NCBI RefSeq assembly: GCF_029633865.1
Contig: NC_079213.1
Coordinates: forward strand, 96,016,820 to 96,080,819
Direction of reading: 5' to 3'
DNA length: 64,000 nucleotides
DNA from: Lampris incognitus
Lineage: Eukaryota; Chordata; Actinopteri; Lampriformes; Lampridae
Positions 34,800 through 52,160 of the stretch are shown one piece after another. Position 1 is the stretch's first letter. Every line of letters starts with the position of its first letter. Made by a program: the position numbers and the translations under genes. The notes under the pieces were generated by a model. It made no database searches. It saw nothing but the letters and a program-made list of their open reading frames with translations, and was not told where the DNA came from.

Positions 34800-36560
34800 T
34801 GCCCTGTGAACAGACTGATACTTTCAGGCAAGTAGAAAAGCACTTCCTTGGAATAAAGACCAATGACTTTTAATGTTGCCGTTTCTCTGTAGCTTAGTCT
34901 CACTGCCTTTTTGGCTATCAGTTTAAAGGAAGCCTGTGTCCCATCACAAAAAGCTGCTTTGCGCTTGCGTGTGCGTAAAAAGCCTCTACCATATTTTCTG
35001 CTGTGAGAAATGCACTGTTCACATAGAGAAAAAGCAAAGCGTTGCTATCCTGTAATGCATGCTTTTATTTCCTGTTTTAAATCATAGTTTGAAATACCAA
35101 TGCTTTTGTTGCCAGTCACATCCATATTAAAGACAACTTAAGGACCAAGAACAAGAGAAGGTAACGTTTGTTTGGATACTGAATGCAAACAAAATGTTAT
35201 TACAGTGTAAAGGTGAAAGCACATTGGAAACATCGGATGTGCACATTTTGAAGTACATCAACTGATGCAAAAGGCCAAACGCACCAAAAGTGTCAACTGG
35301 TGTGTCAAACTTCCTTGATGAACAGAGAACCCAGCGACTGCTGTAACAAATTACTTGTTTTGGAGGTGTCGAGTACTGCTTTCAGTGTTTGGGGCCATAA
35401 ACTTTTAGATTGGAAAAGTTACTATAATTTTGTTTCTAATGTTATAATTTTGTTTCTAATGTAATTTTGTTTCGAATGTATTCAAATAAGAGTTAATTAT
35501 TGGTGATTAGTCAAAACTTTGGTCTCCCCCTTCTCTTCACTTGACTATTTCAGAAATGATGTTCCATTTAACATGACTAGTATTGTAACTGGATGTGTAC
35601 CACCACCTCAGAGATCAATGAGAATGTCAAGAATATGAAAAACCCTAGTTGGTAAACTTACTAAGCAAGTATCAAGCATGTAGATTGAACACCATCAGTA
35701 GTACCAACTTGCACAATCGAAATAAAGTTATCTGATTTTAAATGTTTCTAGGCTTTGCTTAAAGGGAGAATGGCATAAGTTAAGGTTTATAATTCATCAA
35801 TAAGTATTTGTCCCTTTGTGGCAGGAAAGATTTTCATTGGTAGGCATAAATGGTTTATTATGTATGACTCGCACTAAAGCCACAGCAATAGCCTACCCAG
35901 TGTATTTAAAAAGAAATGCCAAGTCATTTACTCAAAGTACCTTCAACGAATAACCCACATTTGAATGTTATGAGAATGAAGCTTTGTTCCCTTACAAAAC
36001 GGCCATGTTGAGAATGATATCATGATGTGTTCAGTGACAGAAACCTGATCAGTTTCCTTAGGCTTGCTAGTTGGTATACGGGACATCCATTTCAAAGATA
36101 CACTTGTCTGATACTTAACATTATCGGTTTAGTTTTTATTTGTTCTTAAGCACATCTAGTGAAATGAGAATCAACCGGCACATCCTCCAAAAACCAATGA
36201 TTATGATTCCTTCCATATTATAGACATTTCAGTCAAACCTTACATAGGAGCAGTGACATATTAGATTCCCATTTCATTGCCTTTGGTTTAGGCTAAATCA
36301 GCCCAACGTCACCAGAAAAATGAACACTGGTCGATTGTTCAAGTGGGTTAAAACCACCAATGTTCACGTTTTCATAGGCGACCTCTTGCAGTCATGTGAA
36401 TAAGTGTGTTTTTTGGGGGGGGGTTTTGCATGTAAAAGCTCAACTTCAGAAAGGCACTGGTGTCGTCAATGTCGCTCCTTTTCAGATGGGGGATGAGACT
36501 CTGGTAACCTTGAAAACTGATAAGAAGCTTGTTCTGGCCCTATCTGTCCGGAGCTTTATA
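34800..36560. other. intergenic, nothing recognised
   Basis: About 1.75 kb of AT-rich sequence. A short imperfect triplication of TAATTTTGTTTCTAATG occurs near 35430-35480, and an AATAAA at 35722. No exon was recognised. Confidence 0.35.
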
Positions 36561-38138
36561 CACTGCTCAAAAAAATAAAGGGAACACCTAAAAACACAAT
36601 ATAGACCTCGATGAATGAAATATTTCAGCTGAAAATCTTTATTTATTAGACAGAGGAATGTGTTTAGAGCAAAATAACCTAAGAATGATCAATGGAAATC
36701 AAAATCATTAGCCCATTAAGGTCTGGATTCAGAATCATACTCAAAATCAAAGTGGAAAATGAGAACATAGGCTGATCCAACTTCTGTGGAAATTCTTCAA
36801 GACGATTCAAAATTAGGCTCAGTAGTGTGTGTGGCCTCCACGTGCCTGTATGCACTCCCTACAACGTCTGGGCATGCTCCTGATGAGACGACGGATGGTC
36901 TCCTGAGGGATCTCCTCCCAGACCTGGATCAGGGCATCGGTCAACTCCTGGACAGTCTGTGGTGCGACATCGCGTTGGCGGATGGTACGAGACATGATGT
37001 CCCAGAGGTGCTCGATTGGATTCAGGTCTGGGGAACGTGCAGGCCAGTCCATAGCATCAATGCCCTCGACATACAGGAACTGCTGACACACTCTGGCCAC
37101 ATGAGGACGAGCATTGTCATGCATGAGCAGGAACCCAGGGCCCACTGCACCAGCATATGGTCTGACAATGGGTCTGAGGATCTCATCTCGGTACCTAATG
37201 GCAGTCATGGTACCTCTGGCTAGCACGTAGAGGTCTGTGCAGCCCTCCAAGGATATGCCTCCCCAGACCATCACTGACCCACCGCCAAACCGGTCATGCT
37301 GGAGGATGTTGCAGGCAGCAGAACGTTCTCCACAGCGTCTCCAGACTCTCACGTCTGTCACATGTGTTCAGTGTGAACCTGCTCTCATCTGTGAAGAGCA
37401 CAGGGCGCCAATGGCGAATCTGCCAACCAAGATGTTCTCTGGCAAAGGTCAATCGGGCTGCACGGTGTTGGGCTGTGAGCACAGGCCCCAATTGTGGACG
37501 TCGGGCCCTCATACCATCCTCATGCATTCTGTTTCTCACTGTTTGAGCAGAAATCTGCACATTAGTGGCCTGTTGAAGGTCGTTTTGTAGGGCTCCGGCA
37601 GTGCTCCTCCTGTTCCTCCTTGCACAAAGGACCAGATAGCGGTCCTGCTGCGGGGTTGTTGTCCTCCTGCGGCCCCCTCCACGTCTCCTGGTGTACTGGC
37701 CTGTCTCCTGGTACCTCCTCCATGCTCTGGACACTGTGCTGGGAGACACATCAAATCTTCTTGCCACAGCACGCATTGATGTGCCATCCTGGATGAGCTG
37801 CACTACCTGAGCAACTTCTGTAGGTTGCAGATACCGCCTCATGCCACCTCTAGTGGTGAGGGCACTAGCAAAATGAAAAACTAACCAAAGATCGGCCAGA
37901 AAAGATGAGGACAGGCAAATGGTCTGTGGCCACCACCTGCAAATCCATTCCTTTTATAGGGGTTGTCTTGCAAATTGCCTAATTTCCACCTGGTGGAAAT
38001 TAGACAATTTACCAACAGGTGAAATTGATTCACAAATCAGTGTTGCTTCCTAACTGGACAGGTTGATATCTCAAAAGTGTGATTGACTTGGAGCTACATT
38101 GCATTGCTTATGTGTTCCCTTTATTTTTTTGAGCGGTG
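36561..38138 (-). mobile_element. Tc1-type transposon, nearly complete
   Basis: It is 1578 bp. Terminal inverted repeats begin CACTGCTCAAAAAAATAAA (left), with a right partner differing at one position in 27 (CACCGCTC...). TA lies on both sides, as expected for Tc1/mariner insertion. The transposase is on the minus strand. This terminal sequence belongs to a Tc1 family common in teleosts. Confidence 0.95.
36819..37842 (-). pseudogene. Tc1 transposase with one frameshift
   Basis: This is a cut-and-paste DDE transposase. The N-terminal part has paired helix-turn-helix motifs ([38 protein letters not shown]) and a GRRR linker. The catalytic residues appear as LFTDESRF (D), LLMHDNARPH (D) and SPDLNPIEHLWD (E). 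The length, about 340 residues, is normal for Tc1. The frame is broken once, between the first and second catalytic segments (near 37340): TGTGACAGACGTGAG runs into AGTCTGG where family members have two further bases. Otherwise open, so this copy is young. Confidence 0.9.
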
Positions 38139-38786
38139 TAATATGTCAGATAGAAACTATCAAAGAAGAAAAGCCTATTTGTGGGGATGTGAAATTACAT
38201 CTGGCCAACCCAAATCTTAAGAATTTTTTCCCTCGATGTGACTGAACCACAGGGACACTACTACTATTACTTTTGGCTGCTCCCGTTAGGGGTCGCCACA
38301 GTGGATCATCCATTTCCATCTCTTCCCTGTCATCTGCATCTTCCTCTGTCACACCAGCCACCTGCATGTCCTCTCTCACCACATCCATAAACCTCCTCTT
38401 TGGCCTTCCTCTTTTCCTCTTCCCTGGCAGCTCCATATTCAACATCCTTCTGACAATATACCCAGCATCTGTCCTCCACACATGTCCACACCCTCTCAAT
38501 CTTGCGTCTCTTGCTTTGTCTCCAAACCGTCCAACCTGCACTGTCCATGTAATACATTGTTTTTCAACAAAAACCAAATGTTACAAAACGAAACAGTACA
38601 TAGCCTATCATAGTATGTAATATAAGGACTTAGAGGTATACTCACTCAGTGCAAAACCTGGGCCTGTTTCAATGAACACAAAGCTGATATCCTGGCAGGA
38701 ATCGACCAGAGGGACACACGGAGCTCTTGTTTGACTGCTCTCAGTCGCTCTCTGTTTTTAGTTTTTATGGTAGTTAGGGTTGAAAA

Positions 38787-41700
38787 ACCAAGCCACTGAG
38801 GATGCACAAGCCAGTGCATCCTTAGTGCCGGTCCCAAGCCCGGACAAATGGGGAGGGTTGCGTCAGGAAGGGCATCCGGCGTAAAATCTTTGCCAAATCA
38901 AATATGCGGATCATAAATAAGACTTACATACCGGATCGGTCGAGGCCCGGGTTACCAACGACCGCCACCGGTACTGTTAACCAGCAGGGTGTCGGTGGAA
39001 ACTATGCTACTGCTGGGCGAAGGAGAAGGAGAGGGGGAAAGCATGTCCAGAGGCAGCTAGAGAGGAGGAAGGGTAGGCATGTGGAGGTGAGAGTTGGAAC
39101 TTTGAATGTTGGCACTATGACTGGTAAAGGGAGAGAGCTGGCTGACATGATGGAAAGAAGAAAGGTAGGCATACTGTGTGTGCAAGAGACCAGGTGGAAG
39201 GGGAGTAAGGCCAGGAGTATCGGAGGTGGGTTCAAACTCTTCTACCATGGTGTGAATGGGAGGAGTAATGGGGTAGGGGTAATTCTGAAGGAAGAGTATG
39301 TAAAGAGCGTGCAGGAGGTGAAGAGAGTGTCAGACAGAGTGATGAGTATGACGCTGGAAATTGAAGGTTTATTGCTGAATGTTATCAGCGCATATGCCCC
39401 GCAAGTTGGGTGTGAGATGGATGAAAAAGAAGAATTCTGGAGTGAGTTGGATGACATAGTGGAGAGGGTACCCAAGGAGGAGAGAGTGGTGAGTGGAGCC
39501 GACTTCAATGGACATGTTGGTGAAGGGAACAGAGGTGATGAGGAGGTGATGGGAAGGTATAGAGTCAAGAAGAGAAATGTGGAAGGACAGATGGTGGTCG
39601 ATTTTGCGAAAAGGATGGAAATGGCTGTGGTGAATACATATTTCAAGAAGAGGGAGGAACACAGGGTGACGTACAAGAGTGGAGGAAAGTGCACACAGGT
39701 GGACTATATCTTATGTAGAAGGCGCCATCTAAAAGGGATTGGAGACTGCAAGGTGGTGACAGGGGAGAACGTAGCTAGGCAGCATCGGATGGTGGTCTGT
39801 AGGATGACTTTGGAGACCAAGAAGAGGAAGCGAGTGAAGACACAGCCGAAGATCAAATGGTGGAAGTTGAAGAAGGAAGACTGTTGTGTGGAGTTCAGGC
39901 AGGAGCTAAGACAGGCACTGGGTGGCAGTGAAGAGTTGCCAGATGGCTGGACAACCACTGCAGAAATAGTGAGGGAGACAGCTAGGAAGGTACTTGGGGT
40001 GTCATCAGGACAGAGGAAGGAAGACAAGGAGACTTGGTGGTGGAATGAGGAAGTACAGCAAATTATACAGAGGAAAAGGTTGGCAAAGAAGAAGTGGGAT
40101 AGTAAGAGAGATGAAGAAAGTAGACAGGAGCACAAGGAGATGCAGCGTAAAGCAAAGAGAGAGGTGGCAAAGGCAAAGGAAAAGGCGTATGGTGAGTTGT
40201 ATGACAGATTAGACACTAAGGAAGGAGAAAAGGACTTATACCGATTGGCTAGACAGAGGGACCAAGCTGCAAAGGATGTGCAGCAAGTTAGGGCGATCAA
40301 GGATAGAGATGGAAATGTGCTGACAAGCGAGGAGAGTGTGCTAAGAAGGTGGAAGGAATACTTTGAGGGGCTGATGAATGAAGAAAATGAGAGAGAGAGA
40401 AGGTTGGATGATGTAGGGATAGTGAATCAGGAAGTTCAGCGGATTAGCAAGGAGGAAGTGAGGGCAGCTATGAAGAGGATGAAGAATGGAAAGGCAGTTG
40501 GTCCTGATGACATACCTGTGGAGGCATGGAGATGTTTAGGAGAGATGGCAGTGGAGTTTTTAACTAGATTGTTTAACACAATCCTGGAAAGTAAGAGGAT
40601 GCCTGAGGAGTGGAGAAGAAGCATACTGGTACCGATTTTCAAGAACAAGGGCGATGTGCAGAACTGTAACAACTACAGAGGTATAAAGTTGATCAGCCAC
40701 AGCATGAAGATTTGGGAAAGAGTAATAGAAGCTAGGTTAAGAGGAGAGGTGACGATCAGCGAGCAGCAGTATGGTTTCATGCCACGAAAGAGCACCACAG
40801 ATGCGATGTTTGCTTTGAGAATGTTGATTGAGAAGTATAGAGAAGGCCAGAAGGAGTTACATTGTGTCTTTGTAGATTTAGAGAAAGCTTATGACAGAGT
40901 GCCGAGAGAGGAGGTGTGGTATTGTATGAGGAAGTCAGGAGTTGCAGAGACGTATGTAGGAGTGGTGCAGGATACGTATGAGGGAAGTGTGACAATGGTG
41001 AGGTGTGCGGTTGGAATGACAGATGGGTTCAAGGTGGAGGTGGGATTACATCAAGGATCGGCTCTGAGCCCTTTCTTGTTTGCAATGGTGATGGACAGGT
41101 TGACGGGCAAGATTAGGCAGGAGTCTCCATGGACGATGATGTTCGCAGATGACATTGTGATCTGTAGCGAGAGTAGGGTGCAGGTTGAGGAGAGCCTGGA
41201 GAGGTGGAGGTATGCACTGGAGAGAAGAGGAATGAAAGTCAGTAGGAGCAAGACGGAATACTTATGCGTGAATGAGAGAGAGGACAGTGGAATGGTCAGG
41301 ATGCAAGGAGTGGAGGTGACAAAGGCATTTGAGTTTAAATACTTGGGGTCAACTGTCCAAAGTAACGGGGAGTGCAGTAGAGAGGTGAAAAAGAGAGTGC
41401 AGGCAGGTTGGAGTGGGTGGAGAAGTGTGTCAGGAGTGATTTGCGACAGAAGGGTTATCAGCAAGAGTTAAAGGGAAAGTTTACAAGATGGTTGTGAGAC
41501 CAGCTATGTTATATGGTTTGGAGACAGTGGCACTGACGAAAAGACAGGAGGCGGAGCTGGAGGTGGCAGAGTTGAAGATGCTAAGATTTTCACTGGGAGT
41601 AACGAAGAAGGACAGGATTAGGAACGATTATATTAGAGGGACCGCTCAGGTTGGACGGTTTGGGGACAAAGCAAGAGAGGCAAGATTGAGATGGCTTGGA

Positions 41701-41923
41701 CATGTGTGGAGGAGAGATGCTGAGTATATTGGGAGAAGGATGCTGAATATGGAGCTGCCAGGGAAGAGGAGACGAGGAAGGCCAAAGAGGAGGTTTATGG
41801 ATGTGGTGAGAGAAGACATGCAGGTGGCTGGTGTGACAGAGGAAGACGCAGAAGACAGGAAGAAATGGAAACGGATGATCCGCTGTGACGACCCCTAACG
41901 GGAGCAGCCAAAAGTAGTAGTAG
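38787..41923 (+). mobile_element. young, nearly intact RTE LINE
   Basis: The 3.14-kb element is flanked by a perfect 16-bp duplication TAGTTAGGGTTGAAAA (38771-38786 and 41924-41939). The 5' part (AAGCCACTGAGGATGC ... GCATCCGGCGTAAAA) and the 3' end (AACGGGAGCAGCCAAAAGTA plus AGT units) are both present. It lies inside the hAT transposase gene, on the opposite strand. Confidence 0.95.
38904..41898 (+). pseudogene. RTE endonuclease-reverse transcriptase, one frameshift
   Basis: One 855-codon frame starts at ATG and carries an AP-type endonuclease (VGTLNVGTM, QETRWKG near residue 94, SAYAPQ, DFNGHVG) and a reverse transcriptase (FVDLEKAYDRVP, GLHQGSALSPFLF, MMFADDIVI with FADD near 747-750). 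At about 41455 an extra T in GGGTTATCAGC shifts the frame. The remainder (RVKGKVYKMVVRPAMLYGLE through LPGKRRRGRPKRRF) follows in the next frame to 41898. It makes target-primed reverse transcripts when intact. Similar proteins are often mislabelled craniofacial development protein 2-like. Confidence 0.93.
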
Positions 41924-43637
41924 TAGTTAGGGTTGAAAAGACAAGCTCGCAGAGATAGGTTGTGGAAAATGGGACCAACGTTGTGATGGCTCCATTTGCC
42001 ATGATTGGAAAGTCCTTGGCAGCAGTCAACCAAAAACTATCCAGAGATAGATCAGCATAGCTCAGTTTTAAAATACAGTCTTGTCTCAGTTCCACGAGTT
42101 GCTCTTGCTCCTACAAAGTAATGTCCTTTCCAAAAACTACTACTGAGCTATATGGGTCCCTGACCCAGTCAAAAGATTTGGTGGAGGATGAGGGGAAATA
42201 AAAGGATAATTTCTCCTCAGGAGTTTTCAAATGTTCACTTATTATTTCACACAATGCAGCAGCGTCGACATATCCTTGCCATTTTTGGGTCAGGGGGAAC
42301 ATTTCGAGAGTGTCCCTTTCCAGGTGCCGTCACCAGAGGGAGACCTTTGAACGGAATCTGTTTACCTTGTCCGTACTTGTGAGCAGATTTTCGTTTTGGC
42401 CTCTCATTCGAGTATTCAGTTCATTCAGGTGTTGAAAAATATCCGCTGTGTATGCGAGCCTTGCACACCATTCATCACTTGCAAGCAACTTTGCGTCATC
42501 GCACTTCTCATCAGTTAATAAGGTTTTCAGCTCCTCCCGCAACTCATACACACGGGCCAGTACTTTCCCACGAGATAACCAGCGGACCTCCATATGCAGC
42601 AATAAGGCCTTATGCTCCGCTCCCATCTCCTCACATAAAGTTGCAAATAAGCGGCTTTTCAGAAGTCTTGTTTTGACAAAGTTTACCATACGCATGACAC
42701 CATTCAACACATCAGCTAGGTCTGCTGGTAAAGTTTTAGCAACAAGTGTCTCGCGATGCAAAAAGCAGAGTGTGATCACAACATCTGGGTTTCTCTCTCT
42801 CACTCTGTTAACGAAGCCCTTGCTGCGCCCGACCATGGCTGCTGCTCCATCAGTGCAGACACTCACGTAATTGTCCCACTGAAGTCCTCCTTGTTCAAGA
42901 TACTCTGATGTGACCCGATAAATGTCCTCCCCTGTTGTTTTTTCAGGCAATGCCTTGCAAAAAAGGAAATTTTCTCTGATGGTGTCTCCATCCACAAAGC
43001 GCACCATAGCCAAGAGTTGAGCATGTCCACTGATGTTCGTCGACTCATCAAGTTGCAATGCAAATTTCCCACTGGAACGTATCTTTTCCAAAACAACAGT
43101 TTCAATGTCTGCAGACATGTCATCGATGCGTCTGGCAGTCGTGTTATCCGAGATGGGATCTTTGGCAATTTCTTTAACTGCATCTGGGCCAAGCATTTTG
43201 TTCACAATGGCTTTGCAGGCCGGCAATATCAATGTCTCTGCCACCGTGTGTGGCTTTTTTTGCTTTGGCCACGAGTTCAGCTACTAGGTAGCTAGCTTCG
43301 ACAGCTCTCTCAGACCCCTTTGTGGTCTTCCTCATCAGAGCTGCCTGTTTCTCAGTGTGATCATGCAAACGAACAAAATACTCTGTGTTCTTGTTTTGAA
43401 GAGATGGGTGTTTCATTTGCAGGTGACGTTTAAGCTTACTAGGGACCATGGCACTGTTGGCTAGCTTTTCCCCACATACTAAGCACAATGGAATCGGTGC
43501 GGTAGAATCTCCCGTGAAAGAAAATCCAAATGACAGATAAGTGTCACTGCATTGCCTAGATGAACTCACCGTTTTTGATCTCTTTTGACCCCCACTTGTA
43601 GTGGGCTCTTCATCTGGGCTAGTCCGACTTTTATCAG

Positions 43638-43798
43638 GATAATAATAATAATAATAATTTTATTTATATAGCACATTTCTAAACAATGTTACAAAGTGCT
43701 TCACAAAAAACCCAGATAAAAGTAAGATCAAATAGGAGTAAAATTAAAAACAGTAAAAATAAAAACACATATTTTTTGTTTTTATTTTTAAAAACAAA
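43638..43798. repeat. (TAA)n-headed SINE-like repeat in the hAT
   Basis: ATAATAATAATAATAATTTT is followed by TTTATATAGCACATTTC and ACAAAGTGCTTCACAAAAAA, a common fish repeat in reverse orientation. Confidence 0.55.
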
Positions 43799-43799
43799 A

Positions 43800-43846
43800 A
43801 GAGAAAAGATGCTCTTGATCAACATGATCAGAAGCATCTTTTCTCT
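43800..43846. repeat. near-perfect hairpin
   Basis: Arms AGAGAAAAGATGCT and AGCATCTTTTCTCT enclose a second inner palindrome, TGATCA-ACA-TGATCA. Confidence 0.85.
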
Positions 43847-46199
43847 TCAAACATTTCTCCATTTTTAGCGCGTTGTCACGTGTGGGTAATGGTCTACCTG
43901 CATCTCTAACTCTATTGTCTGAAATCAAAAATAATTACTAATCGCGCTAACTACCGCCCCCACAGGCATAGGAGAGTACTTCATTAGATGTTGACTGCGT
44001 AGGCCTACCACCATAGCACAACCGTAGACCCTCAAAGAGAGCTGAATGTAATTAATTATTTAGCGCAGCTTAAGATACATTTTTCTGGACCCATTAAGTG
44101 GAATAGGATAATTTCCCATGGCACACCTGGCGATCTCTCACAGCACACTGTGCCACGGCACAGTGATTGAAAAGGGCGGATCTAATATACTCATTCCTAA
44201 TCCTGTCCTCCTTTATCATTCCCAACAAAAATCTTAACATCTTCAACCCTGCCACCTCCAGCTCCGCCTCCTGTCTTCGTCAGTGCCAACGTCTTCAAAC
44301 CATACAACATAGCTGGTCTCATTACCATCTTGTAGATCTTCCCTTTAACTCTTGCTGGTACCCTTCTGTCGCAAATCACTCCCAACATTCTTTTCCACCC
44401 TGCCTGCACTCTCTTCGTCACCTCTCGCACTCCCCATTACTTTGAACAGTTGACCCCAAGTATTTAAACTCATACACCTCCACTCCTTTCATCCTCACCA
44501 TTCCGCTGTCCTCCCTTTCGTTCACACATATGTATTCCGTCTTGCTCCTCCTGACTAATTCCTCTTCTCTCCAGTGCATACCTCCGACTCTCCAAACTCT
44601 CCTTAACCTTCTCCCTGCTGTCGTTACAGATCACAATGTTATCCGTGAACATCATAGTCCCCAGAGACACCTGCCTGATCTCGTCCATTACCATTTCAAA
44701 CAAGAAATGGCTCAGAGCCGATCCTTGATGTAATCCCACCTCCACCTTGAACCCATCCGTCATTCCTACCGCACAACTCACCACTGTCACACTGCCCTCA
44801 TACATATCCTGCACCACTTACATCTCTGCCTCTCCCCATTTCCTCATAAAATACCACACCTCCTCTCTCGGCACTCTGTCATAAGCTTTCTCTAAATCTA
44901 CAAAGACACAATGTAACTCCTTCTGGCCTTCTCTATACTTCTCTATCAACATCCTCAAAGCAAATATCGAATCTGTAGTGCTCTTTTGTGGCATGAAACC
45001 ATACTGCAGCATGCTAATCGTCACCTCTCCTCTTAACCTAGCCTGTAGTACTCTTTCCCATATCTTAATGCTGTGGCTGATCAACTTAATACCTCTGTAG
45101 TTACTATAGCTCTGCACATCACCCTTATTATTAAAAATCAGTACCAGCATGCTTCTTATCTGCTCCTCAGACATCCTCTCACTTTTCAACATTGTATTAA
45201 ACAATCTAGTTAAAAACTCCACTACCATCTCTCCTAAACACCTTCATGCCTCCACAGGTATGTCATCTGGACCAAGCACCTTTCCACTCTTCATAGCTGC
45301 CCTCACTTCCTTGCTAATCCACTGCACTTCCTGATTCACTATCCCCACATCAACCAGCCTTCTCTTTCTCTCATTTTCTTCATTCATCAGTCCCTCAAAG
45401 TACTCTTCTCAACACATTCTCCTCACTTGTCAGCACATTTCTATCTCTATCCTTCATCGCCCTAACCTGTTGCACATCTTTCCCAGCGCAGTCCCTCTGT
45501 CAAGCCAAATGGTAGAAGTCCTTTTCTCTTTCCTTAGTGTCTAACCTCTCATACAACTCACCATATGCCTTTTCCTTTGCCACCTCTCTTCGCTTTACGC
45601 TGCATCGCCTCGTACTCTTATCTACTTTCTTCATCTCTCTGACTATCCCACTTCTTTGCCAACCTCCCCCTCTGTATACTTTGCTGTACTTCCTCATTCC
45701 ACCACCAAGTCTCCTTGTCTTCCTTCCACTGTCCTGATGAAACACCAAGTACCTTCCTAGCTGTCTCCCTCACCATTTCTGCAGTGATTGCCCAGCCATC
45801 CGGACACTCTTCCCTGAACTCCACACAATAATCTTCCTTCTTCAACTTTAATCATTTGATCCTTGACACTGCCTTCCCTCTTTTCCTCTTCTGGGTCTCC
45901 AAAGTCATCCTACAGACCACCATCCAATGCTGCCTAGATACATTCTCCCCTGTCACCACTAGGGTTGGGTACCAAAAACGGTGCCCATATGGCACCGACC
46001 GAAATATCTCGGTCCTACCGAGTATAAAACTCTTTGAGAAAAAACGGTGCCAAATTTAGATACTTTACGGTAGATGACGTGAACGGTATCGCAGCCAGCC
46101 AATCACTACCAGCGTTGTTGTACACAGGTGACTGACTGACAAATCAGCATGAAGCTATTTGGTATGTGTGTGCGTCTCGTAACTGCGTTGGAGTTGCAA

Positions 46200-46875
46200 A
46201 CTGGCAGGCAAGATTCAGTGAGCTACTTTGCGTTCCAAAGCGTGGCTACACTTTGTAAAAATAGACAGCAAACCTGACACAGTAAAATGCAACCGCTGCA
46301 AAGCGATCATCAAATGCAAGTCTGGGAATACGTCAAATATGCAGTGGCGCCTACAAGGGGTGGCCAGGGGTGGCCACGGCCACCCTGATACTATCCCTGG
46401 CCCCCCCGCTGGCCCCCCCAGCCACGAGTCGCATATGCAGAATATGCTTCTGATTATGCATAATATGCTTCTATCTGATATCTTACATTAGGTGCTGTTC
46501 AATAATATATATTTTTCTTAACTCTCATATTGACCGTTTTCAACTAGCCTATACAGTATACTACAACAGCAGCATAGAATTCCCGAAATTCAGTCATGGC
46601 TTTTGATTTTGGTGTGCCACCCCAAGATTTTCAGTGGCCCCATTTGGCCACCCCGATGAAAAATTTCTGGGGGCGTCACTGCGAATATGATGAAACATCT
46701 GATCACGCATGGGATAAATTTACGAGTGGACAACTGCTCTTTGTTTGATAACGTTAATGTCCGTGCTGCTGCCAACATTAACGTTTGCTCTGGGACGTCT
46801 GCTGCTGGGTCTTCTGGTGCCACTGCTAGCAATGATGAAACAGGTAACGACGGTTATGATGATGTATATAAATAG
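46200..46875 (+). pseudogene. N-terminal fragment of a hAT transposase (BED zinc finger)
   Basis: SKAWLHFVKIDSKPDTVKC, CNRCKAIIKCKSGNTSNM and, after the MITE, MKHLITHGINLRV make one BED finger (W..F, C-x2-C, H-x4-H). An Ala/Ser/Asp-rich stretch ends at a stop. The catalytic core was lost by internal deletion, so the element cannot mobilise itself. Confidence 0.75.
46342..46681. mobile_element. hAT-type MITE splitting the BED finger
   Basis: The ends CAGTGGCGCC and GGGCGTCACTG are inverted. An 8-bp flanking duplication has one mismatch (CAAATATG and CGAATATG). The inside has inverted GGTGGCCAGGGG / TTGGCCACCCC segments and no coding potential. Confidence 0.85.
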
Positions 46876-48064
46876 GCTCACATACATTAAAGATGTCAGT
46901 CTGCACATTGACCTCATTGTCATTGTTGACCTCACTTTCAATTTCAAAGCGCTAGAGTACAGAACCAAAATAAAACAATGTGTCAATGAATTAAGGTGCT
47001 TGCTGTATAGAAACGTAGTTTGCTGATAATCCTATAAGGTTTTCATAATATATAGTATTGAAAAAGTATTGTTTAGGTATCGTATCAAATTGGAGGAATT
47101 GGTTTGGTATCGGCATCGGACATTTTCAAACGATACCCAACCCTAGTCACCACCTTGCAGTCTCCAATCCCTTTCAGATTGTACCTCTACATAAGATATA
47201 GTTCATCTATGTGCACTTTCCTTCACTCTTACACGTCACCCTGTGTTCCTCCCTCTTCTTGAAATATGTATTCACCACAGCCATTTCCATCCTTTTTGCA
47301 AAATCCACCATCATCTGTCCTTCCACATTCCTCTCCTTAACACCATATCTACCCATCACCTCTGTTCCCTTCACCAACATGCCCATTGAAGTCCACTCCA
47401 ATCACCACTCTCTCCTTGGGTACATTCTCCACCACTTAATCCAACTCACTTCAGAATTCTTTTTTGTCTTCCATCTCTCACCCAACTTGCAGGTCATATG
47501 CGCTGCCCAACATTCATCACCACCCCTCCGATTTCCAGCTTCACACTCATTACACTGTGACACTCTTTACCTCCATAACAGTCTTGGCATACTCTTCCTG
47601 CAGAATAACCCCTACCCCATTTTTCCTCCTATCCGCACCATGGTAGAAGATTTTGAACCCAACCCCGATGCTCCTGGCCTCACTCCCCTTCCACCTGGTC
47701 TCTTGCTCACACAGTGTATCTATCTTCCTTCTCTCCATCATATCAGCCAGCTCTCTCCCTTTATCAGTCATACTGCCAGCAATGGAAGTTCCGACTCTCA
47801 CCTCCACACTCCTACCCTTCCTCCTGTCCCACTGCCTCTGGACATGCCTTCCCCCTCTCCTTCTCCTAATAGCATAGTTTCCACTGGCACCCTGCTGGCC
47901 AACAGTATTGGTGGTGGTCATTGGTAAGCCGGGCCCGAACCAATCTGGAATGGAAATCGGATTTTTGATACGCATATTTGATTTACTAAAGGTTTAACAC
48001 CGGATGGCCTACCCTCCCCATTTATCCAGGCTCGGGGGACTGGCACTAAGAACGCACTACCATC

Positions 48065-50235
48065 AACAATTGAGTCAAGTGAGCCAATACCTACCTCTGG
48101 CAGCCTTACATGCCTATATATACACAAGTCATAACAGACCCAATTTAGAGAGATGAATTTGATGTACAACCTTAAACTGGATTAGACTCAGACGGGCACA
48201 GGAGGAAGAGGAGTTGACACATGCAATTGCCCTCTCCCACCAGTCATCATCAAGCTCTGTATCTAACTCCTTCACCCAGGTGCACTTAATATTTTGAGAG
48301 TATGGTCTTTTGAAAGATATAGTTTGGTTCTAGATCCGTGAGATAAGTCTTCCAAGCGTGAGAGGAGTTTCAAGGAGTGTGCTCGTGCCAGATTTGGGTG
48401 GTAATATTGGAAACTGGGTTATGGGTTTAAGAATTGGCGTATTTTAAAATATCAAAAAAGGTTTGAGCCAGGCAGGTTAAATTTAGCAGATAGGGTCTCA
48501 AAGCTAGCAAAGGCACCATCAATGTAAAAGTCACTGAAATATTTTAGTCCTGCTCCAATGCCCAAAAATAGCATCCAGCTTTGCAGGGAGGAATACATTA
48601 TTATTACAAATAGACCCCAGCAGGGAGAAATTTCGAAATTTAAAATGCTGATGGAATTGTGTCCAAATTTTAAGCTTGTATGTGACAATGGGGCTTGAGG
48701 TATGTCAGGAGGGGGGATGATGGTAAGGGCACAAACGAGCTCGAAGGAAGGACAAACAGGAGTCAGCTTCCATACGGCACCAGTCCATGTCTAGATGATG
48801 TAGCCAAAAAAAATCTTTTGGATGTGTGCTGCCCAATAATAAAACAAAGTTTGGATGAGCCAAGCCTCCTTTTGACCCATTTCTCTGAAGCAGAGATTTA
48901 TTTATGCATGGAACGTGGCTCCTCCATATAAAGGTTGAGATCAAGCTGTCAACTGAGAGGACAAACGATTTGGGCAGAAAAGAGGCAAACACATAAAAGA
49001 AGTCAGGGCAAAATATTCATTTTCACAGATTGAACTCTGTCAGTTAAAGATAAAGAAACAACGTTCCATCTCTGAAGGTCTGATCTCACTTTTTCCACCC
49101 AGGTACTTGAAACTAGTTTTAGAAAAATGAAAAGGAAGGTCATCTTGGTTGATCATTAATGCCGAGTTGTTAACCGGAAAACACTGTGAAATTTAATTTA
49201 TATCTGGAAAAAGCGCCAAAGTTTTTCCAATACATCTGATATTTCTGGTACACAGGCAACAGGGTCAGTGACATAATAGGTCTACTGCATATAAGGACAA
49301 ACGATGTTCAATACCCCAACGATGAATGCCCTTAATCAATGGGGATGCTATTAGAGCTATGGAGAGGGGTTCAAAGGCTATAGCGAATAAAAGAGGTGAT
49401 AGGGGCCAGCCCTCAAGAGTTCCTCATGAGAGGGAAATGTATGAAGAATGTAGATTATTGGTACAGATGCAAGCCTGTGGAGAGGAATACAGAAGGCGGA
49501 CCATTGAGGTAAAAATTTTCCCCAAAACTGAACTTTTGCTGTTCAAGGCAAGATGGGCTGGGTTTGCATCATCCATTCCCTGAAGAAATGTAGTACAATA
49601 AACAATGTTCATATTGTGTGCAATCCCTGTCAATAACACTATCAAAATATTACAAAAAGATTCCGCTGGGTGTGATTATTTAAATGCAATCAGTACCCCT
49701 TTACAGCCCTTGTAATCCCTTCCTCAAACACTAACCCAGACGAAAAATAAAAGGAAAAGGAAAAAAAAAAACTCACTCCTTATCCTGGAATCGATGAAAG
49801 TGGACTATTATTATACGCCGTGGCCGCCCACCTGTCTAGTTCCGGGGGCTTCTCAAAAATGCCGTCGCCCACCACTTCCACCTGGAGCTCGGAAACAAGC
49901 CTAATGGATGTTGGTCCAGCACTTTCAGGCACACCAACAATACGGATGTTTTGATGCCAAGAGCGATTCTCCAAGTCATCCACGTTAGCCTTCAGGTAAG
50001 TGTTTTCAGATGCTAACTCAGATGACAGCGGCCTCCATTGATTTTATCCTGTCACTATGATCCATAAGACAAGCTTCAAAGGCAGTGAGAGTTCGCCCAT
50101 GGTTGTCTGAAGTAAAACGGATTACATCAAGTGAAGCTTGAATTGGAGACAGAGCGGTTATCAGTTCAGTTGAGAGGCTTGTTTTGAGTTCTTCTTCCGT
50201 ATAATTGGTGAATTTGAGCATTATCGCCACCTACT
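48065..50235 (-). mobile_element. L1-type LINE, internally deleted
   Basis: The right end encodes an ORF1-like protein (FTNYTEEELKTSLSTELI; MDDLENRSWHQNIRIVGVPE; EVVGDGIFEKPPELDR), as in L1/Tx1 ORF1. The left end encodes the ORF2 C-terminus (STFIWRSHVPCINKSLLQRN, DGAFASFETLSAKFNLP, SSSSCARLSLIQFKVVHQIH). Between them only part of the RT region remains, so at least 2 kb of ORF2 is missing. Stops and frameshifts are frequent. The left end abuts the 5' end of the old RTE. Confidence 0.75.
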
Positions 50236-50374
50236 GTTACATTAGATAGTCCTTAATTTATATCCTTCCCATCAGTCCAGTATCCCTGAGAAAGGTGAAG
50301 ATATATTTAAGTACATCATTCCCAGTGTTCCTTGTGAAAATTGATTTTAGGTCCAGGTGTATAATTCCTTTTTG

Positions 50375-52160
50375 TGAGGAGATGGTGATGGGTAGGTATG
50401 GTGTCAAGGAGAGGAATATGGAAGGAGAGATGGTGGTGGATTTTGTGAAAAGGATGGAAATGGCTTTGGTGAATACATATTTCAAGAAGAGGGATGAACA
50501 CAGGGTAATGTATAAGAGTGGAGGAAAGTGCACACAGGTGGACTATATCTTATGTAGGAGGCACGATCTGAAAGGGATTGGAGACTGCAAGGTGGTGACA
50601 GGGGAGAATGTAGCTTGGCAGCATCAGATCATGGTCTGTAGGATGATTTTGGAGACCCAGAAGAGGAAGAGAATGAAGGCAGAGCCAAGGATCAAATGAT
50701 GAAAGTTGAAGAAGGAAGACTGTTTTGTGGAGTTGAGGGAGGAGATAAGAAAGGCACTGGGAGGTAGTGAAGAGTTGCTGGATGGCTGGGTAACCACTGT
50801 AGAATTAGTGAGGGAGACAGCTAGAACAGTATTTAGTGTGACATCAGGACAGAGGATGGAAGACAAGGAGACTTGGTGGTGGAATGAGGAAGTACAGCAA
50901 AGTATACAGAGGGAGAGGTTGGTAAAGAAGAAGTGGGATAGTCAGAGAGATGAAGGAAGTAGACAGGAGTACAAAGAGATGAAGCGTAAAGTGAGGAGAG
51001 AGGTGGCAAGCGCAAAGGAAAAGGCATATGGTGAGTTGTATGAGAGGTTAGACACTAAGGAAGGAGAAAAGGAGTTGTACCGATTGGCTAGGCAGAGGGA
51101 CCGAGCTGGGAAGGATGTGCAGCAGGTTAGGGCAATCAAGGATAGAGATGGAAATGTGCTGACAAGCAAGGAGAGTGTGTTGAGGAGGTGGAAGGAGTAC
51201 TCTGAGGGGCTGATGAATGAAGAAAATGAGAGAGAGAAGGTTGGATGATGTAGGGATAGTGAATCAGGAAGTTCAGTGGATTATCAAGGAGGAAGTGAGG
51301 GCAGCTATGAAGAAGATGAAGAGTGGAAAGGCAGGTGGTCCTGATGACATACCTGTGGAGGCATGGAAATGTTTAGGAGAGATGGCAGTGGAGTTTTTAA
51401 CAAGATTGTGTAACACAATCTTGGAAAGTGAGAGGATGCCTGAGGAGTGGAGAAGAAGCATACTGGTACCGATTTTCAAGAATAAGGGCGATGTGCAGAA
51501 CTGTAGCATACAGAGGTAATATCAGCCACAGCATGAAGATATGGGAAAGAGTAATAGAAGCTAGGTTAAGAGAAGAGGTGACAATCAGCCAGCAGCAGTA
51601 TGGTTTCATGCCACAAAAGAGCACTACATATGCGATGTTTGCTTTGAGAATATTGAATGAGAAGTATAGAGAAGGCCAAAGGAGTTACAGTGTGTCTTTG
51701 TGGATTTAGAGAAAGCATATGACAGGGTGCCAAGAGGAGGTGTGGTATTGTATGAGGAAGTCGGGAGTGGTAGAGAAGTATGTAGGAATGGTGCAGGATA
51801 TGTATGAGGGAAGTGTGACAATAGTGAGGTGTGCAGTTGGAATGACAGATGGGTTCAAGGTGGAGGTGGGATTACACGAAGGATCAGCTCTGAGCCCTTT
51901 CTTGTTTGCAATGGTGATGAACAGGTTGACGGACAAGATTAGGCAGGAGTCCCTGTGGACTGTGATGTTTGCAGATGACATTGTGATCTGTAGCGAGAGT
52001 AGGGTGCAGGTTGAGGAGAGCCTGGAGAGGTAGAGATATGCACTGGAGAGAAGAGGAATGAATGTCAGTAGGAGCAAAATGGAATAACTATGCGTGGATG
52101 AGAGGGAGGACATTGGAATGGTGAGGATGCAAGGAGCAGAGGTGACAAAGGTGTATGAGT
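50375..52160 (+). mobile_element. internal fragment of an RTE LINE
   Basis: Colinear with residues about 215-820 of the RTE at 38.9 kb (YFKKRDEHRVMYKSGGKCTQ, GKAGGPDDIPVEAWKCLGEM, VMFADDIVI). Both the 5' third and the 3' tail are absent. Several frameshifts and stops are present. A missing 3' end is unusual for target-primed copies and points to a later deletion. Confidence 0.88.

Follow-up and report, generated by a model that had tools for sequence, protein, structure and literature searches.

Nesting and insertion order of six mobile elements at one locus of Lampris incognitus

The ordering of nested mobile elements is established practice, and nesting is common. REANNOTATE (PMC2672092) defragments interrupted repeats and reads the order of insertion from their nesting; according to its Table 3, nested copies make up 48% of the repeats on human chromosome 2. 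TinT (PMC3014933) derives the succession of activity periods from insertions of one element into another. The locus considered here lies in a stretch of 64,000 nucleotides of Lampris incognitus contig NC_079213.1 (positions 96,016,820 to 96,080,819, forward strand), hereafter the window, to which all coordinates refer. Six mobile elements were nested at positions 38257-48058, the outermost being an old minus-strand non-LTR (long terminal repeat) retroelement, the old RTE. REANNOTATE is automated and was applied to human and cereals, whereas a single locus was resolved here by hand with the aid of empty sites in sister copies; TinT relies on genome-wide frequencies, whereas a single nest records one path only. 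The nest is a well documented yet ordinary case of a common pattern, which leaves knowledge of these elements unchanged, and provides a clean worked example in which four types of evidence, nesting, target duplications, empty sister sites and sequence decay, concur.

The old RTE was in three pieces, interrupted by two hAT-type DNA transposons, hAT1 (38555-44179) and hAT2 (45960-47145). Within hAT1 lay the young RTE, which belongs to the old element's family, and a truncated retroelement 3' end (43640-43772), while hAT2 contained a 340 base pair (bp) miniature inverted-repeat transposable element (MITE). The original prediction, made from the window sequence, had described a five-element nest; the nest itself was confirmed, but the count was not, the segment 43640-43772 having been overlooked. 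Element boundaries, target duplications and empty sister sites were observed directly, as was the rank order of divergence. The proposed order of insertion, the old RTE, then the two hATs, then the young RTE and the MITE, is supported because nesting, the empty sites in sister copies and copy-specific divergence all agree. RTE insertion both preceded and followed the hATs, as had been suggested. The accompanying notion of a hAT burst was not sustained, since the nest holds just two hAT insertions of two families, for which at least 14 (hAT1 right end) and at least 170 (hAT2 left end) candidate sites were found in the genome. The nest almost certainly formed by serial transposition into one spot, and nothing observed points to a function of the nest as a unit. 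Sister copies were sought in 1.48 Gb of genome, and the candidate counts for repeat queries are lower bounds. The names RTE, ZBED and Buster are working labels.

An L1-type element enclosing the old RTE would give the nest one more outer level, but this is highly improbable. A minus-strand segment at 48708-49016 did match human L1 ORF2p chains (E 0.0003-0.0006). However, of the 40 other genome matches to 48059-48520, 32 started exactly at 48142 and none started earlier, and seven L1 copies had no credible match to either flank of the old RTE (best 17 nt for 38141-38256 and 16 nt for 48059-48141). The description of both flanks as a single L1 frame was dropped, since neither the genome matches nor the seven L1 copies supported it.

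The young, plus-strand RTE copy (Y) was used as a ruler for the three old pieces, all of which are on the minus strand. The 3' end piece (38257-38554) matched Y 41631-41927 with 91.3% identity, its last 8 bases being the left hAT1 duplication. The middle piece (44180-45959), which is bounded by a hAT1 duplication on one side and a hAT2 duplication on the other and includes both, matched Y 39753-41637 (84.4% identity with gaps), and the 5' piece (47146-48058) matched Y 38813-39764 (82.3% identity with gaps). In successive alignment, 48058-47149 corresponded to Y 38813-39757, 45959-44188 to Y 39753-41630, and 38546-38257 to Y 41639-41927. When hAT1 and one copy of its duplication were removed, 208 aligned bases crossed the junction gap-free, with one 2-base gap elsewhere. 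The rejoined hAT2 site showed a 5-base gap at the junction, which represents five surplus bases; the right duplication, once corrected, is 47146-47153. The hAT1 duplications, ATGTAATA (38547-38554) and ATCTAATA (44180-44187), differed by the single mismatch that had been predicted, and the hAT2 duplication was perfect as described, GTCACCAC occurring at both 45952-45959 and 47146-47153. Among 400,000 random 8-mer pairs from 37-49 kb, the frequency of a full match was 0.00003 and that of exactly one mismatch 0.00056. With continuous pieces and duplications at both sites, the claim that the old RTE was cut twice, by hAT1 and by hAT2, stands.

The pieces could in principle be three different RTE copies that share an orientation by chance and lie beside two hATs, although this is very unlikely. 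The raw substitution rates relative to the young copy were unequal, 13.5%, 10.4% and 8.0% for the 5', middle and 3' pieces (O1, O2 and O3), respectively (O1 vs O2, p 0.02; O2 vs O3, p 0.21), which is a point against a single copy. However, where each hAT intervenes, the RTE coordinates of the adjoining pieces match and the duplications are of hAT size, and five long copies of the family had the same regional gradient (5.0, 4.1 and 1.8%), to which the old copy, once scaled, conformed (chi2 0.53, p 0.77). The low 3' value partly reflects the recruitment of the gradient panel by 3'-end similarity; of the 39 further places listed, 20 were taken at length. The single-copy origin of the old RTE was therefore not refuted. 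Moreover, substitutions of 8.0-13.5% place the old and young RTE in one family, a closer relationship than the common clade originally proposed.

hAT1 was on the minus strand, also in three pieces. The left piece (38555-38786) consisted of the end CATTGTTTTTCAAC, just inside which some 50 bp present in sister copies are missing, the middle piece (41940-43639) carried most of the transposase frames, and the right piece with the right end (43817-44179) was contiguous with 43639 in sister copies, which ended at or near 44179. The candidate sites found with the right end included hAT1 itself, and seven copies were taken at length. The site of the young RTE was empty in four of them (L053, L055, L056 and L057), where the window pieces overlapped by 14-16 bp, an overlap that equates to the young RTE duplication. 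L058 was deleted over this site, and L054 and L059 had no left-side match. In L056 a single open frame spanned the site, which places the insertion of the young RTE within the hAT1 transposase frame. The hAT1 transposase gave no Pfam transposase domain and no PDB match, and a zinc-finger match (PF18658, 23.9 bits) was weak, below the cut-off of 27.3; the label ZBED was taken over from the original prediction as an assumption. Comparison of the ends in four copies revealed perfect 8-bp duplications with a central TA in three (GACTAAAG, CTTTAGAG and TTCTAGCA), and the window copy, ATCTAATA, also has the central TA. The form nnnTAnnn has been reported for target duplications of Buster elements (PMC3517528). 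The likeness of hAT1 to that family, 8-bp duplications with a central TA, concerns the duplication motif only.

The young RTE (38787 to about 41922, plus strand) has a frame of 855 amino acids, which starts at 38904, is disrupted towards the 3' end and encodes a reverse transcriptase and a probable endonuclease. The former was recognized by Pfam RVT_1 (119.8 bits, cut-off 29.6), while the endonuclease match (Exo_endo_phos, 24.1 bits) was just below its cut-off of 24.5; human L1 ORF2p chains aligned to residues 61-816 (E 4.5e-27). The element is flanked by 17 identical bases at 38770-38786, where the overlap in sister copies is 14-16 bp, and at 41923-41939. The GTA-repeat tail overlaps the duplication, and the first 3-4 of the 17 bases may belong to the tail, giving a length of 13-17 bp, compared with the "perfect 16-bp duplication" described earlier. 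The fetched RTE copies had GTA-type tails and several had distinct duplications, none being found in 7 of 20. The name RTE for both retroelements is that of the original prediction. The young element resembles RTE / Bov-B LINEs (long interspersed nuclear elements; PMC13295347) in that a reverse transcriptase and a putative endonuclease share one frame, the tail is a short repeat and the duplications vary. The insertion signature reported for Bov-B is Tn-TA (PMC13295347), and T-runs were seen by eye closely upstream of TA at the one target site of the young RTE. Here, however, the tail is of GTA type, and the clade placement is provisional.

hAT2, on the plus strand, was in two pieces defined by sister copies, 45960-46341, which contains a BED finger fragment at 46234-46341, and 46682-47145, which includes the right end. 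The BED finger had been predicted and scored above the Pfam cut-off (zf-BED, 24.8 bits, cut-off 20.6). All 12 of the first 12 bases were inverted at the two ends. A full transposase frame was absent, so the hAT2 copies look non-autonomous. Seven copies were taken from the left-end query. The MITE (46342-46681, plus strand; ends CAGTGGCGCC and GGCGTCACTG) lay between its own 8-bp duplications, CAAATATG (46334-46341) and CGAATATG (46682-46689), which differ by one mismatch. Its site was empty in six of the seven hAT2 copies (L046-L051), the halves being contiguous and the copies 827-842 bp long, in agreement with the claim that the MITE had cut hAT2. The halves overlapped by 8 bp, but by 6 bp in L050, and in five of the six the overlap read CGAATATG, which identifies the right duplication as the unchanged one. 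The duplications flanking the sister hAT2 copies had at most two mismatches in five of six. The genome contained at least 1358 candidates for the MITE; 40 were scored, whose boundaries departed from 46342 and 46681 by no more than a few bases, and a duplication with at most one mismatch was found in six of seven copies. The MITE is short, has inverted ends, many copies and an 8-bp duplication, as expected of a hAT-type MITE.

Divergence was measured as the substitutions private to each copy relative to its panel of sister copies. The values were 248/2925 (8.5%) for the old RTE, 78/1826 (4.3%) for hAT1, 31/844 (3.7%) for hAT2, 6/338 (1.8%) for the MITE and 27/3119 (0.9%) for the young RTE. The old RTE exceeded both hAT1 (p 1e-8) and hAT2 (p 7e-7), and both exceeded the young RTE (p 4e-15 and 6e-8, respectively), while divergence did not separate hAT1 from hAT2 (p 0.53). 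In a tree of 12 RTE copies the old copy had the longest terminal branch, 0.098 compared with 0.023 for the young. The close panel for the young RTE comprised seven relatives, 97.3-98.5% identical, and the changes were nearly flat by codon position (8/7/12). The old RTE had an excess at third codon positions (38/44/62, p 0.04) that was less marked than that of the young RTE in the first panel described below; some of its 8.5% may thus have arisen before it inserted. The hAT1 coding changes were flat (16/16/20). With only codon positions 1 and 2 counted, the old RTE (82/1166) still differed from hAT1 (32/1021, p 4e-5). The old RTE value depends on the panel, 293/2940 being obtained with both panels pooled.

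The sequence of events almost certainly began when an RTE-like non-LTR retroelement inserted in the minus orientation. It was then interrupted by two hAT-type DNA transposons, which represent different families and each generated an 8-bp duplication. Subsequently, a younger member of the RTE family entered the hAT1 transposase frame with duplication of 13-17 bp, and hAT2 received a hAT-type MITE. The tail of a 5'-truncated retroelement also landed in hAT1, near the N-terminal part of its transposase. Cut-and-paste and target-primed reverse transcription are the probable biochemical routes of the individual insertions.

In addition to the unequal raw rates of the old pieces, several observations weigh against serial transposition in this order. 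For the old RTE itself, the best flanking duplication was 8 bp with one mismatch, located in the simple tail, and was unconvincing. Among the sister copies, credible duplications were missing in L058 (one of four hAT1 copies), in L050 (hAT2, 6 mismatches) and in L067 (one of seven MITE copies, 6 mismatches), and the left duplication of L055 overlapped the first two bases, of CAGTG, of the hAT1 element. The divergence of hAT2 and the MITE differed only suggestively (p 0.098). The panels are unequal in closeness to their queries, so the percentages rank the copies, do not give ages and are not strictly comparable, and the panel for the old RTE was without its own closest relatives. Finally, a first, less close panel gave 107/3090 (3.5%) for the young RTE, no different from hAT1 (p 0.16). 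In that panel the codon positions of the middle region (14/11/32, p 0.001) had a third-position excess, indicating subfamily difference and not decay; the estimate was inflated for this reason and was superseded by 27/3119. A young copy needs a yardstick from its own subfamily, which here lowered the value from 3.5% to 0.9%; otherwise recent insertions seem too old.

The sixth element (43640-43772, minus strand) belongs to a dispersed, retroelement-like repeat with a TAA-repeat tail and at least 1022 candidates in the genome. Because five of seven relatives share sequence past position 133 (L074 and L075 do not), the segment most likely derives from a longer element of which the truncated 3' end remains here. 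It is followed by a 44-bp filler (43773-43816), which ends in an inverted copy of the adjacent hAT1 sequence (43799-43816). The whole of 43640-43816 was missing at this site in six of seven hAT1 copies, and in the seventh, L035, unrelated DNA of about 730 bp stood in its place. The element had no recognizable ordinary duplication around it. The inverted copy and the missing duplication, together with the roughly 50 bp lost near the left end of hAT1, indicate that some local rearrangement did happen, but assembly of the entire nest by recombination between repeats is as improbable as its derivation from different RTE copies, given target duplications of the expected type at four insertions and sister copies that lack the young RTE or the MITE at the respective site and have overlaps equal to the duplications. 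Beside the sixth insertion, hAT1 sequence and its inverted copy form a 49-bp inverted repeat (43799-43847), which may mark an aberrant retroelement insertion.

The chances are roughly even that the mobility of the RTE family in this lineage began long before the hATs arrived (about 8-10% decay), lasted until very recently (0.9% for the young copy; relatives 97-98.5% identical over 2.1-3.1 kb) and may continue still, in which case such nests would be a dated record across hAT invasions. A third RTE copy was found at 50374-52160 on the plus strand; it has 91% identity with the young copy and lacks both ends, and its 3' break corresponds to young position 41334. A start at young 41330-41340 was shared by 5 of 21 RTE 3'-end copies from 20 loci, including L014, L016, L017 and L026. 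L016 and L017 have differing 16-bp duplications and so are independent insertions. The common start possibly reflects a hot spot for 5' truncation or a short derivative.

An Rfam scan of the whole window at gathering cut-offs gave no matches. On the right, the nest is followed by a minus-strand, L1-like remnant (48142-50230), whose open reading frame 2 (ORF2) part matches human L1 ORF2p; the sequence of this family ends at 48142, and 83 bp (48059-48141) separate the old RTE from the remnant. On the left lies a Tc1-like element (36559-38140) with 33-bp inverted ends (94%), which holds a transposase fragment at 37297-37842 on the minus strand (Pfam HTH_Tnp_Tc3_2).

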